From an uncultured Alphaproteobacteria bacterium (GTDB taxonomy: Bacteria; Pseudomonadota; Alphaproteobacteria; HIMB59; GCA-002718135), in contig CABXWB010000001.1 of assembly GCA_902515745.1 (NCBI GenBank), forward strand, positions 124,001 through 188,000: 64,000 nt of DNA, read 5' to 3'. Below the pieces are notes generated by a model. That model made no database searches. It saw only the letters and a program-made list of their open reading frames with translations, and had not been told where the DNA came from. Below are positions 40,711 through 46,735 of the stretch, in pieces (the stretch's first letter is position 1; each line of letters starts with the position of its first letter). Made by a program: the position numbers and the translations under genes.

Positions 40711-42555
40711 TTAAACACCTTTTCGTTGTTTATTTTTTCCATCTATAAATTCTTCATAAGCAGCTTTATTTTCTTTTGTGGAAGAAACCTGAAGTGTTGG
40801 ACTGTCCCAAAAAGCTGTACCTTCTAACCATTCATACCCATCTGTTTTCATTGAAATTACGTATGTTTTATCAGATGCTTTAGCTCTTTTAAAAGCAGCT
40901 TCTAATTCTGAGGTAGACTTTACAGTTTCAGCATTTGCACCCATACTTTTTGCATGAGCCTCGAAGTCAACAAACTGAAGGTTAGTAGCTCCAGCAGCAT
41001 TTAAATTACAAAGGTATTCTTTACCTCCTTTTGCAAGTTGAAGTCTGTTAATAACCATATGACCACCATTATCACATACTACAATGATCAATTTTTTATC
41101 ATATAAAACTGAGCTATAAATATCACTGTTTTGAAGAAGATAAGATCCGTCTCCAACAAATACGACAACATCCTGGTCAGGTTTTGCCATTTTAATTCCT
41201 AAGGCACCTGATATTTCATATCCCATACAACTAAAACCCCATTCAGTTTCAAAAGTATTAATTTCTTTTGGTTTCCAAATTTGAACAACTTCTCCAACTA
41301 ATCCACCAGCTGCTGTTACAACAATGTCAGAAGGGTCGGAGTTTCTATAGACGGCTCCTACTGCATGAGCATATGATGGTAATTCTTGATTTGTTGGTCC
41401 ACTTTCTTTAGCAACATATTCTTCCCATTTATTTTTTTCTTCAATTGCTCTTTGATACCAACCATTAGGAGCTTTCCAATCCCCTAAAGCTTTTGATAAT
41501 TCCTTTAATCCAATTTTTGCATCACTTACTACAGGAAAAGCTCGATGTTTAACTGTATCAAATCTCGATGTATTAACTGATACAAGTTTAAAATTTTCAT
41601 TTTGAAAATTTGTCCAAGATGCAGTTGTAAAATCTGCCAATTTAGTACCGATTGCTAAAGCTAGGTCTGTATCTCTGGATAAATTATTTGCTGATCCTTC
41701 ACCCAAGCCTCCAGTAGCACCTATGTAATAAGGATCATCTTTATGCATACAGCCGATTCCCATGACTGTTGCAATAACAGGAATATTGTGTTTTTTTGCA
41801 AAAGAAGAAATTTCCTCCTCAGCTTCAGAATATAATACGCCACCGCCAGAAATAATAATTGGTTGTTTTGAATTTTTTAAATTTTCGGCAGCAATATTAA
41901 TTTGTTTAGGATCAGGATGAATAGTTCTTATCTCATGAATAATTTCTTCAAAAAAAATCTCAGGGTATTCATATGCCTCACCTTGAACATCTTGCGACAT
42001 CGAAATTACAGCTGGTCCACAGTCAGATGGATCGAGCATTGTATTTATTGCTTGTGGTAAAGAAGATAAAATCTGCTCTGGTCTTGTGATTCTATCAAAG
42101 TATCTAGATACAGATCTAAAAGCATCATTTTGTGTTTCAGAAGGAGAGTTAAAATGCTCAACTTGTTGTAAAACTGGATCAGGAAATCTACTTGAAAAAG
42201 TATCACCAGGTAAAAGTAAAATTGGAAGTCTGTTACTTAAAGCTACTGCAGAGGCTGTAACCATATTTGTTGCACCAGGTCCTACTGAAGAAGTTGCAAC
42301 AAATATTTGTTTCCTGCGTTTTGCTCTTGAATAGGCAATACCCGTTAGGGCCATATTTTGTTCATGATGTCCTCTATATGCTGGTAAATCATTTTGAAAT
42401 TCTTCCATCGCTTGACCAATGCACGCAACATTACCATGTCCATAAATTCCAAATGCTCCAGGGAATAATGGTTCTTTTTTTCCATTAATCAAAATTTTTT
42501 GGACAGTTAAATACTTAATTAATGCATGGGAGCATGACATTTTTATGGTTTTCAT
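40711..42555 (-). CDS. iolD: ThDP-dependent enzyme, IolD-like (trihydroxycyclohexane-1,2-dione hydrolase)
   Basis: FPGAFGIYGHGNVACIGQAMEEF...YRGHHEQNMA...FVGDGSYLLQNSDIYSSV...NGGHMVINRLQ. Confidence 0.85.
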   Translation of the reverse strand: MKTIKMSCSHALIKYLTVQKILINGKKEPLFPGAFGIYGHGNVACIGQAMEEFQNDLPAYRGHHEQNMALTGIAYSRAKRRKQIFVATSSVGPGATNMVTASAVALSNRLPILLLPGDTFSSRFPDPVLQQVEHFNSPSETQNDAFRSVSRYFDRITRPEQILSSLPQAINTMLDPSDCGPAVISMSQDVQGEAYEYPEIFFEEIIHEIRTIHPDPKQINIAAENLKNSKQPIIISGGGVLYSEAEEEISSFAKKHNIPVIATVMGIGCMHKDDPYYIGATGGLGEGSANNLSRDTDLALAIGTKLADFTTASWTNFQNENFKLVSVNTSRFDTVKHRAFPVVSDAKIGLKELSKALGDWKAPNGWYQRAIEEKNKWEEYVAKESGPTNQELPSYAHAVGAVYRNSDPSDIVVTAAGGLVGEVVQIWKPKEINTFETEWGFSCMGYEISGALGIKMAKPDQDVVVFVGDGSYLLQNSDIYSSVLYDKKLIIVVCDNGGHMVINRLQLAKGGKEYLCNLNAAGATNLQFVDFEAHAKSMGANAETVKSTSELEAAFKRAKASDKTYVISMKTDGYEWLEGTAFWDSPTLQVSSTKENKAAYEEFIDGKNKQRKGV

Positions 42556-42652: not shown

Positions 42653-43618
42653 ATGAAAGTAGGAATTGTAGGAGATATTCATCCAAGTGGGTATGAATTT
42701 TTTGATAAAAATAATATTGAGTATTTCGTAACAAATAACATAGAAGAAAATAATTTAACTAAGGAATTATCAGATGTCGATGGGATAATTATCCGAACAG
42801 CAGAATTAAATGAAAATATTCTTTCAAAAAGTCAAAACCTTAAAATTGTAGCAAGACATGGAGTAGGTTATGACAATGTTGACACAGAATATTTAAATAA
42901 AAACAAAATCGCTATGGCAATTACTGGTAGAGCAAATGCAGTAAGTGTAGCTGAGCATGTGATGACAATGATGTTAAATCTTACAAAAAATATTTCTAAA
43001 TCTGATAAACTAATACGAGATAATAAATTTAAAGAAAAAGCAAATTTACCAAATTTTTTTGAACTCTATAATAAAAAAATTCTAATAATGGGTTTTGGAA
43101 GAATAGGAAAGGCTCTTGCAAAAAGATGTTTAGGGTTTGATATGGAAATATTTGTTCATGACCCATTTATTAGTGAAAATGAAATTACAAGTAATAATTG
43201 TATTCCAATAAATAAAGATGAAGGTTTTAAAATTGCTGATTACATCAGTATCCATCTACCTCTAAACGATAAAACAAAAAATTTAATTTCTTCAAATGAA
43301 TTCAAAATTTTCAAATCTAATTTAATATTAATTAACACAGCTCGAGGAGGTATTATTAATGAAGATGATTTATTTGATGCATTAAATAATAATAGAATAT
43401 TTGGGGCAGGAATTGATGTCTTTGAACAAGAACCTCCCACAAATGATCACAAATTATTTTCATTGGAAAATATTATTTTAACTCCTCATAATGCCGCTCT
43501 TACATTAGAGTGTAGGAAAAGAATGGCTGTTGAATGCTGCGAAAATGTTTTTAACTTTTTATCTAAAAGTAAAAACTTAATAGAAAGTAATATAATTAAT
43601 TTGGATATATTAAGTTAA
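42653..43618 (+). CDS. D-3-phosphoglycerate dehydrogenase-like 2-hydroxyacid dehydrogenase
   Basis: VARHGVGYDNVD, GFGRIGKALAKR, NTARGGIINEDDL, EPPTNDHKLF. Confidence 0.9.
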   Translation: MKVGIVGDIHPSGYEFFDKNNIEYFVTNNIEENNLTKELSDVDGIIIRTAELNENILSKSQNLKIVARHGVGYDNVDTEYLNKNKIAMAITGRANAVSVAEHVMTMMLNLTKNISKSDKLIRDNKFKEKANLPNFFELYNKKILIMGFGRIGKALAKRCLGFDMEIFVHDPFISENEITSNNCIPINKDEGFKIADYISIHLPLNDKTKNLISSNEFKIFKSNLILINTARGGIINEDDLFDALNNNRIFGAGIDVFEQEPPTNDHKLFSLENIILTPHNAALTLECRKRMAVECCENVFNFLSKSKNLIESNIINLDILS

Positions 43619-43935
43619 AGATTTAGGTAAAGATTTCCATCCTCTTCGGTGACATCATATATCCTTAATGGATTTTGATCTAAATCTGTAATAGGATCTC
43701 CAGAGACAATACTAAATTTATTTCCACAAGATGGACATTCAAGTTCTTCGGCTTCAATGCTTGCTTCACTTAATAGAGATCTTTCCGCACATGGACAATT
43801 ACCTTCAGTTGCAAAAAAACCTGATTCAATTCTATAAATTGCATAATTAACATCTTCATGTTCAAAATTCTCAACTGAACCAACATCTATATCATCAACT
43901 TCTCCTATAAAAATTGGTTCGATTTCATCATTCAT
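43615..43935 (-). CDS. Rieske-like small ferredoxin with CPC...CPSC in place of CPH...CPxH
   Basis: Rieske-type length and layout (GNCPCAERSLLSEASIEAEELECPSCGNKFSIVSGDP); both canonical His positions read as Cys when checked at codon level (tgt). Confidence 0.75.
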   Translation of the reverse strand: MNDEIEPIFIGEVDDIDVGSVENFEHEDVNYAIYRIESGFFATEGNCPCAERSLLSEASIEAEELECPSCGNKFSIVSGDPITDLDQNPLRIYDVTEEDGNLYLNL

Positions 43936-43995: not shown

Positions 43996-45150
43996 TTATC
44001 TGAATTTTAGATTTTTTCTTGTTAGCTCTTTTACGTTAGAAACACCCATTAATTTCATATCTCTTTCAATTTCACTGCGTAAATTGGACAAACTTTTTTC
44101 AACACCCTTTTGACCACCAGCAGCAAGAGCATATAAATACATTCTTCCTCCAGAACAGGCTTTGGCACCTAGAGATAACGCTTTTAAAACATGAGTACCT
44201 CTTCTAATACCACCTTCACAGATAACATCTATTTTATCTCCAACAGCATCTACAATTTCAGCAAGTTGATCGAATGGTGATCTTGAGCCATCTAATTGCC
44301 TTCCCCCGTGGTTAGAAATCATTATTGCTGATGCTCCAACATCTACAGCTTTTTTAGCATCATCTACTGACATTATTCCTTTGATAGCAAATTGACGTCC
44401 CCAGTCTTGATTAATTTTTTCAATATCTTTCCAACTTAATGAGTTATCAAGCATTTTTGTAAAGTAGTCACCAATAGTCGTCATTACAGTTGTGCCTTCG
44501 TTTATATGATCTTTTAGATTGCTCAACTCCCATTTTGGTTTTGTAAAATAATCTATTGCCCATTTTGGATGAACCATAAAACTTGCAACACTATTTAGTT
44601 TTAGTTTCATAGGAATAGTAAAACCGGTATATAAATCTCTTTCACGATTTCCACCAACTGCAGTATCTACAGTTACAGCCATTGCTTCAAAATTGGATTC
44701 CTTACACCTTTCTATTAGAGCTTTATTTAACCCTTTATCTTTATGAACATATAATTGAAATAATTTTGGTGTTTTTACTAAATTTGATATTTCTTCAATG
44801 CTAGCAGTTCCTAAAGATGAAATTCCGAACATTGTTCCAAATTTTTCAGCCGCTTTAGCAACACCAATCTCTCCCTCGTAATGAAATAGTCTTTGAAGAG
44901 CAGTCGGCGCACAATACAATGGCATATCTAATTTTTGACCCATTACTGTGGTCGACATGTCTACTTTATCAACACCACTTAAAACATTGGGAATTAAATC
45001 GCACTGCTCATAAGCATCAGTATTTCTTTTATAAGTTATTTCATCATCAGCAGCGCCGTCAATATAGTGAAAAATAGGACTGGGTAATCTTTTTTTTGCT
45101 AAGTTTCTAAAGTCTTTAACGTTGTGACAATTATTTATACTTCCAAACAT
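43996..45150 (-). CDS. FMN-dependent alpha-hydroxyacid dehydrogenase (L-lactate dehydrogenase LldD-like)
   Basis: IMISNHGGRQLDGSRSPFDQL, EGGIRRGTHVLKALSLGAKA. Confidence 0.9.
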   Translation of the reverse strand: MFGSINNCHNVKDFRNLAKKRLPSPIFHYIDGAADDEITYKRNTDAYEQCDLIPNVLSGVDKVDMSTTVMGQKLDMPLYCAPTALQRLFHYEGEIGVAKAAEKFGTMFGISSLGTASIEEISNLVKTPKLFQLYVHKDKGLNKALIERCKESNFEAMAVTVDTAVGGNRERDLYTGFTIPMKLKLNSVASFMVHPKWAIDYFTKPKWELSNLKDHINEGTTVMTTIGDYFTKMLDNSLSWKDIEKINQDWGRQFAIKGIMSVDDAKKAVDVGASAIMISNHGGRQLDGSRSPFDQLAEIVDAVGDKIDVICEGGIRRGTHVLKALSLGAKACSGGRMYLYALAAGGQKGVEKSLSNLRSEIERDMKLMGVSNVKELTRKNLKFR

Positions 45151-45998
45151 TATGCTTGAATAGTTTTTTGAGTTTGTTCTCCTAAACCTTCAATACCAAG
45201 TTTCATCACATCACCTGCTTTTAAAAAAACTTGTGGGTTCATTCCCATTCCAACCCCAGGGGGTGTTCCGGTCGAAATAATATCACCTGGTTGCAATGAC
45301 ATAAACTGACTTAAATAGCTGATTAAAAAATTTACTCCGTAAACCATCGTATTAGTAGACCCATCCTGCATTCTTTTACCGTTAACATCAAGCCACATTT
45401 TTAAATTTTGTGGATCTGGAACTTCATCAGTAGTTACAAGGTAAGGACCTATTGGACCAAAAGTATCACAAGATTTGCCTTTCACCCATTGACCTGAATG
45501 TTCTATTTGAAACTCTCTTTCACTTAAATCATTGACAACACAATATCCAGCAATGTGAGACTGTGATTCACTTTCAGAAATATATTTTGCCTCTTTTCCT
45601 ATAATAACTCCGAGCTCAACTTCCCAATCTGATTTAACTGATTTTTTGGGTATTTCTACATCATCATTTGGGCCAATAACTGCACTTGTTGCTTTAGCGA
45701 ATATGATAGGTTCCGGTGGTACTTTTTGGCCTGTTTCCTCTGCGTGATCAGAATAATTAAGACCAATACATATAAATTTTCCAATGCTATCTTTAGAAAC
45801 ACAAGGTGCAAACCCATCATTCATTTCAACTAAAGGTAAAGATGTAAGGTCAGTTTTTTTTACTTCATTAAGTTTGTCTATAGTTACGTTTTTGTTATCC
45901 CAATCTTTTACTAAAGAAGAAGCGTCACGAATATTGCCTTCTTGATCAAGTAATCCAGGTTTTATTTCTTTACCAATTCTGAATCTCAAAATTTTCAT
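45150..45998 (-). CDS. Fumarylacetoacetate hydrolase family, 2,4-diketo-3-deoxy-L-fuconate hydrolase-like
   Basis: MKILRFRIGKEIKPGLLDQEGNIRDAS; CIGLNYSDHAEE; WEVELGVIIG; TGTPPGVGMG. ATG 45998 preferred to ORF start 46010. Confidence 0.8.
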   Translation of the reverse strand: MKILRFRIGKEIKPGLLDQEGNIRDASSLVKDWDNKNVTIDKLNEVKKTDLTSLPLVEMNDGFAPCVSKDSIGKFICIGLNYSDHAEETGQKVPPEPIIFAKATSAVIGPNDDVEIPKKSVKSDWEVELGVIIGKEAKYISESESQSHIAGYCVVNDLSEREFQIEHSGQWVKGKSCDTFGPIGPYLVTTDEVPDPQNLKMWLDVNGKRMQDGSTNTMVYGVNFLISYLSQFMSLQPGDIISTGTPPGVGMGMNPQVFLKAGDVMKLGIEGLGEQTQKTIQA

Positions 45999-46735
45999 TA
46001 TAAAGTCCATCCTCCATCAATTAAATTTAAAGTGCCAGTAACAAAATCTGATTCATCACTTGCTAAATATGTTGCAAGAGATGCAATTTCTTCTGGCTGT
46101 GCTAATCTTCCCATAGCCTGCCTAGCAATAAAATCTGACCGTGCCTTTTTTGGATCCTCAGCCATATTAACTCTACCCTCCCAAGAAGGTGTTTCAACAG
46201 TTCCTGGTAAAATGGCGTTACAGCGAATACCGTCTTTGACGTGATCAATGGCTATAGCTTTTACAAATCCGTTGAGTGCAGCTTTGGTTGTGCCATAGAT
46301 AAATCTATTAGGAGCACCTTTTACATTTGAAGCAGCAGAGGAAACAATAACGATACTTCCTTTTTTCTTTTTAAGCATTTTTGGTAAGAGATTATGAGTC
46401 ATTAAATATGCAGAAAAAACATTTACATTTATTGATCTTGAAAATTCATTTTCATCACAATCAAGAATGGTACCATGATGAACAAAACCCACAGCATGAA
46501 ATAAAACATCTATCTTATCTACAGTTGAACAAAAAGCCTCAACCTCATTTTTATTCGTAGCATCTAATTTAATGATTTGAATATTATTATTTTCTTTTTT
46601 TAAATCTTTGAGCGTATCTTCATTAATATCAGTTGCTAATACTGAAGCTCCCTCATTTGCAAATCTCAATGCTGTGGCTTTTCCTATTCCTTGAGCAGCG
46701 GCAGTAACAATAATATTTTTTTTATCTAGTCTCAT
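45998..46735 (-). CDS. Short-chain dehydrogenase/reductase (2-keto-3-deoxy-L-fuconate dehydrogenase-like)
   Basis: TAAAQGIGKATA, YGTTKAALNGF, CNAILPGTVETPSWEGR. Confidence 0.82.
   Translation of the reverse strand: MRLDKKNIIVTAAAQGIGKATALRFANEGASVLATDINEDTLKDLKKENNNIQIIKLDATNKNEVEAFCSTVDKIDVLFHAVGFVHHGTILDCDENEFSRSINVNVFSAYLMTHNLLPKMLKKKKGSIVIVSSAASNVKGAPNRFIYGTTKAALNGFVKAIAIDHVKDGIRCNAILPGTVETPSWEGRVNMAEDPKKARSDFIARQAMGRLAQPEEIASLATYLASDESDFVTGTLNLIDGGWTL

Follow-up and report, generated by a model that had tools for sequence, protein, structure and literature searches.

Rieske clusters are held by two cysteines and two histidines, and the histidine ligands set a high, pH-dependent potential. 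What does a protein of this fold bind, and what does it do, when cysteines replace both histidines? The question is raised by an ORF in the window (the whole 64,000-nucleotide stretch of an uncultured alphaproteobacterium analyzed here; Table 1). Its product, which contains EGNCPCAERSLLSEASIEAEELECPSCGNKFSIVSGD (translation of 43615-43935, minus strand), is small and acidic, with no signal peptide visible in its sequence. C47, C49, C67, and C70 are its sole cysteines, all encoded by TGT, and their spacing has a P of ~3e-5 under random placement. All ORFs of the window were checked, and no other was found to have a CxC...CxxC motif. An identical copy is present in single-cell record AG-461-E22, which is possibly the window's own genome or one very near it. 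Within the open-access subset of the literature, we found no natural Rieske proteins with four cysteine ligands (here, Cys4).

Table 1. Cys4 gene, its ligand loops, and the neighboring genes in the window
Feature	Position	Strand	Remarks
Cys4 Rieske-fold protein, 106 aa	43615..43935	-	ORF with ATG start; coordinates include the stop codon
First ligand loop, C47-x-C49	43789..43797	-	TGT CCA TGT (C47, 43795-43797; C49, 43789-43791); aligns with Rieske C-x-H
Second ligand loop, C67-x-x-C70	43726..43737	-	TGT CCA TCT TGT (C67, 43735-43737; C70, 43726-43728), then G71; aligns with Rieske C-x-x-H
Residues 50-54, after C49	43774..43788	-	Cys4 clade one residue longer than collected CxH homologues
LldD-family FMN 2-hydroxyacid dehydrogenase	43996..45150	-	Separated from the downstream Cys4 gene by 60 bp; ORF and profile match
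FAH-family hydrolase	45150..46010	-	Scores highest with the 2,4-didehydro-3-deoxy-L-rhamnonate hydrolase model, at 385 bits (cut-off, 500)
SDR-family dehydrogenase	45998..46735	-	First operon gene; ORF and profile match
D-2-hydroxyacid dehydrogenase-like gene	42653..43618	+	Convergent; 4-bp overlap of its end with the Cys4 stop; conserved neighbor outside the operon

Sequence profiles and structure models place the product among relatives of the Rieske ferredoxins. Pfam model PF00355 matched it at 25.5 bits (cut-off, 20.3), and PF13806 (Rieske_2) gave 25.6 bits, short of its cut-off of 27. Several Rieske ferredoxin subfamily models, including those of the HcaC/MocE NCBIfam subfamilies, also matched, all well below their curated cut-offs (36.3 versus 136.15 bits for the MocE-family ferredoxin model TIGR02377); the model of the NirD small subunit, TIGR02378, gave 38.4 versus 74.65 bits. 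A profile search of solved structures retrieved Rieske ferredoxins, and the best solved relatives by sequence were CarAc (E value, 5e-9) and BphA3 (E value, 1e-6). The Cys4 protein shares length, fold, and ligand loop positions with these and with the HcaC/MocE families at 22 to 26% identity. When it was aligned to CarAc, BphA3, and others, the cysteine ligands were matched by C47 and C67 and the histidine ligands by C49 and C70. An AlphaFold (AF2) model with 21 relatives in the input had a pLDDT of 82 and matched BphA3 and CarAc in Foldseek with TM scores of 0.85 to 0.88 and deviations of 1.4 to 1.6 A. A second model, of a diverged allele, was of low confidence (67, and below 50 at residues 50 to 54) and gave the same structure matches. 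The ORF product is thus predicted to have the Rieske fold. It should, however, be called a Rieske-fold Cys4 protein and not a Rieske protein, because the defining CxH/CxxH set of two cysteines and two histidines is CxC/CxxC in the window and in all of its 57 distinct relatives. The original prediction of a Rieske-like protein was borne out by these profiles, including the PF00355 score above its cut-off, and by both models; that cysteines replace both histidines was confirmed by codon reading and alignment, and the position of the gene, last after SDR-FAH-LldD, recurs in the loci of relatives.

Homologues were gathered at every rank from genus to phylum. In a first set, 50 of 50 distinct sequences were 106 amino acids long with the four cysteines invariant, and when four further genera from that family were included, the CxC/CxxC pattern was seen in 57 of 57 distinct sequences. 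These represent five genera, all of a single family of marine Alphaproteobacteria in order HIMB59/AEGEAN-169 (one genus of HIMB59, the AEGEAN-169 group, is named AG-337-I02 [PMC8692485]). The normal CxH/CxxH ligands occurred only in weaker homologues (34/34). In the tree, the Cys4 sequences form one clade (support, 99/100) on a long stem of ~2.2 changes per site, for which no sister group was resolved, and the dN/dS ratios of unsaturated Cys4 gene pairs (0.04 to 0.31) indicate purifying selection. Sequencing error, a proviso of the original prediction, and an isolated mutation are ruled out because the motif is constant in the 57 distinct homologues. The invariant cysteines, the single clade, and the dN/dS ratios are most simply explained by one old histidine-to-cysteine replacement kept by selection, and conservation of the all-cysteine ligand set by descent is supported. 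No Cys4 gene is present in the genomes that we placed in the order's second family. Beyond the family, profile searches revealed only CxH/CxxH relatives in 385 genomes sampled at the class level and 399 at the phylum level, a thin sampling with a first-look filter that can miss weak matches. At the thresholds used, no relatives turned up in viral contigs or in collections of phages and plasmids, and there was no PHROG match, so a phage or plasmid origin was rejected.

Allelic variation was also observed in the family. An extra cysteine at residue 81 (SGDC), after the second ligand loop, is present in 17 of 50 sequences, which form one allele group (L067, L068, L070, and others). At loci L041 and L078, the Cys4 genes differ by ~29%, whereas the flanking FAH and LldD genes are 97 to 99% identical; this pair and a second one, L037 and L068, suggest that Cys4 alleles have been replaced by recombination.

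The closest precedent for the ligand set is Sulfolobus ARF, for which the authors' review describes four variants (PMC2946596): (i) H64C alone yields a low-potential [2Fe-2S] cluster with three cysteines and one histidine; (ii) H44C takes up no cluster; (iii) in H44C/H64C, cluster assembly is largely impaired; and (iv) H44I/K45C/H64C, with CxxC in loop 1, forms a rubredoxin-like mononuclear site. The double mutant has the same CxC...CxxC pattern on a Rieske fold as the Cys4 family. However, it is a laboratory product whose cluster is mostly unassembled, whereas the Cys4 family persists across genera and has other changes in its loops as well. A conserved natural Cys4 version is surprising because the equivalent archaeal double mutant largely lacks a cluster.

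The loops themselves can be read in two directions. No natural Cys4 member departs from CxC in loop 1, and according to a bond-length estimate that ignores backbone direction, the distance from iron to C-beta is 3.1 to 3.5 A for cysteine versus 3.4 to 3.6 A for histidine bound through N-delta. Since these distances are close, cysteines at the histidine positions can reach the same iron, and the invariant CxC spacing and the estimate together favor a binuclear cluster. The glycine that follows C70 and the failed ARF double mutant favor a zinc or iron knuckle instead. We prefer an all-cysteine [2Fe-2S] cluster of lower potential, to which we give about an even chance, over mononuclear zinc or iron. 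That loop changes evolved in the natural protein allow a full cluster, making it a carrier of low potential that works specifically for a sugar-acid pathway, is a tentative reading that we place somewhat below an even chance. Against a [2Fe-2S] cluster, loop residues have moved away from what is usual in Rieske proteins: the x of CxL is T, S, or P in every sequence with both histidines (HH rows) versus eight kinds of residue in Cys4 proteins, and the proline of CPx is present in 24 of 57 Cys4 sequences. The distance between C49 and C67, 17 in the Cys4 clade versus 16 in all 34 collected CxH relatives, was dropped as a marker of cluster type because canonical BphA3 also has a spacing of 17.

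The gene neighborhood suggests in which pathway such a protein would act. The gene order SDR-FAH-LldD-Cys4, followed by the convergent 2-hydroxyacid dehydrogenase gene, is conserved, and the four genes are likely an operon because they are closely spaced with no terminator-like site found between them. The non-phosphorylative route of L-fucose breakdown ends in pyruvate and L-lactate (PMC13406643). As judged from family membership, the operon apparently encodes its lower half, and LldD plausibly oxidizes the lactate formed. The fit to this route rests on the FAH match, on an enolase-family dehydratase gene directly upstream of SDR-FAH in two genomes (G148 and G065), and on an apparent L-fucose utilization cluster outside the window (L219:187-5112 on G000:C4), which encodes an alpha-L-fucosidase, a rhaM-type mutarotase, an amidohydrolase, an enolase-family dehydratase, and an aldo/keto reductase and adjoins a sugar ABC transporter. 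Within the window, a gene for an apparent inositol pathway enzyme, IolD (40711-42555; 763 bits, over the equivalog cut-off), lies beside a sugar ABC transporter and is conserved next to the Cys4 operon.

Unlike the oxygenase-type Rieske ferredoxins, which keep both histidines, the Cys4 protein has no oxygenase or ferredoxin reductase encoded beside it. A MocE-family paralogue in the same genome (G000:C1:93.8-94.1 kb; L199:6314-6631) is 28% identical, acidic, and ~105 amino acids long, but it has canonical CTH...CPMH ligands and scores essentially at the MocE cut-off (136.0 versus 136.15 bits). This paralogue and one further Rieske protein on contig C4 were the only matches in a PF00355 search of the genome. 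No Rieske oxygenase partner was found in that search, a tentative result because the Cys4 gene itself was missed. In L199:3404-8905, on G000:C1 and outside the window, the MocE ferredoxin is accompanied by two fatty-acid-desaturase-like proteins, a fatty acid hydroxylase-like protein, and a reductase-like protein whose N-terminal part is missing from the ORF read.

Taken together, a lineage of Rieske-type [2Fe-2S] ferredoxins in one family of HIMB59-order marine Alphaproteobacteria exchanged both histidine ligands for cysteines, in what was apparently a single event at the clade's base, and this state has been kept since. The product would be a small, acidic, cytosolic Rieske-fold protein with a [2Fe-2S] cluster held by four cysteines, each ligand loop giving one cysteine to each iron. 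The loss of the neutral, protonatable imidazoles would lower the potential, and the protein could serve the lower L-fucose (2-keto-3-deoxy-L-fuconate) pathway, either carrying single electrons at low potential or sensing redox state. In its entirety, with cluster type, potential, and role all inferred, we regard this explanation as the best available and its probability as just short of even. Against it, no redox enzyme of the operon is strictly needed for the Cys4 gene to be kept, as one genome has the gene without LldD (G143, see below).

The strongest competitor is a single zinc ion bound by the four cysteines in a structural or redox-switched site, with no electron transfer and, for example, a role as partner of the FAH or SDR enzyme in its assembly or regulation. 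The Cys4 sequences have glycine after the last cysteine in 56 of 57 cases, versus 10 of 35 HH rows, and small residues ahead of C70, so that the C-x-x-C-G of loop 2 looks like a rubredoxin or zinc-type knuckle. The glycine was discarded as proof of the zinc type, being common in canonical Rieske ferredoxins and only enriched here. Zinc ribbon models matched weakly, below their cut-offs and confined to the second knuckle (LysW, 14.4 versus 27 bits; Trm112, 13.5 versus 22 bits). Hsp33, a redox-switch protein of unrelated fold with longer motif spacing, binds zinc and has nothing but the motifs in common with the Cys4 protein. Its CxC and CxxC motifs are conserved (PMC7423844). The resemblance of Rieske cluster loops to rubredoxin and zinc ribbons and the largely cluster-free ARF double mutant also speak for zinc (PMC2946596), but the mononuclear ARF site was obtained with CxxC in loop 1, whereas the Cys4 proteins are invariantly CxC. 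The association of the Cys4 gene with FAH, a non-redox enzyme, would fit zinc as well. On balance, we consider zinc rather unlikely.

That association also bears on the original prediction that the protein is an electron partner of LldD. As acceptor or donor for this flavoenzyme, it could carry any of the cofactors considered here. The Cys4 gene lies immediately 3' of LldD in nearly all loci at a nearly fixed spacing, and apart from LldD the operon encodes no obvious flavin redox enzyme. However, G143 has SDR-FAH-Cys4 with the Cys4 gene directly after FAH (L137, G143:C46), and LldD was not found in this 91%-complete genome; conversely, LldD occurs without the Cys4 gene in many sister-family genomes and in G149 (33 of 162 genomes of the order show this state, mostly of the sister family), and G065 retains SDR-FAH-LldD without Cys4. 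An in-frame TGA interrupts LldD in G001 (G001:C10:33668-34552, L091), either a pseudogene or an assembly error, next to an intact Cys4 gene. Among 162 genomes of the order, Cys4 and FAH occurred together in 84 of the 86 Cys4 genomes, the locus being at a contig end in the two exceptions (G102 and G105), and three genomes had FAH without Cys4 (G147 and G052, with the locus at a contig end, and G065). The Cys4 gene therefore tracks FAH better than LldD, in counts that are confounded by shared ancestry and adjacency and are not independent, as the LldD-only genomes are mostly of one family and neighbors are lost together in incomplete genomes. The co-occurrence counts, G065, and G143 make LldD unlikely as an obligate partner; the proposed partnership in general is weakened, and we now regard it as doubtful.

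A mononuclear Fe(Cys)4 site of the rubredoxin type has an engineered precedent in the ARF triple variant and would suit the all-cysteine set and the C-x-x-C-G knuckle, but rubredoxins have two C-x-x-C knuckles, whereas loop 1 is CxC, and the profile search of solved structures gave no rubredoxin match up to an E value of 1; we consider it very improbable. Least probable of all is loss of the metal, with the cysteine pairs as disulfides or thiols on a Rieske fold without a cluster, as in NirD, whose model (TIGR02378) scores 38 bits on the Cys4 protein, since a lost site should drift, whereas the four cysteines do not vary at the ligand positions of 57 sequences that evolve under purifying selection, and stable disulfides are unlikely in a protein with no visible signal peptide.

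The Cys4 family in these abundant ocean bacteria, with its fold retained and both ligands changed, is a natural experiment on the role of the Rieske histidines, and it also bears on how one fold selects [2Fe-2S], iron, or zinc. Because little cluster was assembled in the corresponding ARF mutant, comparison of the natural proteins with it should reveal which second-shell changes are needed. For the organisms themselves, the Cys4 protein is an uncharacterized component of sugar breakdown in AEGEAN-169/HIMB59.
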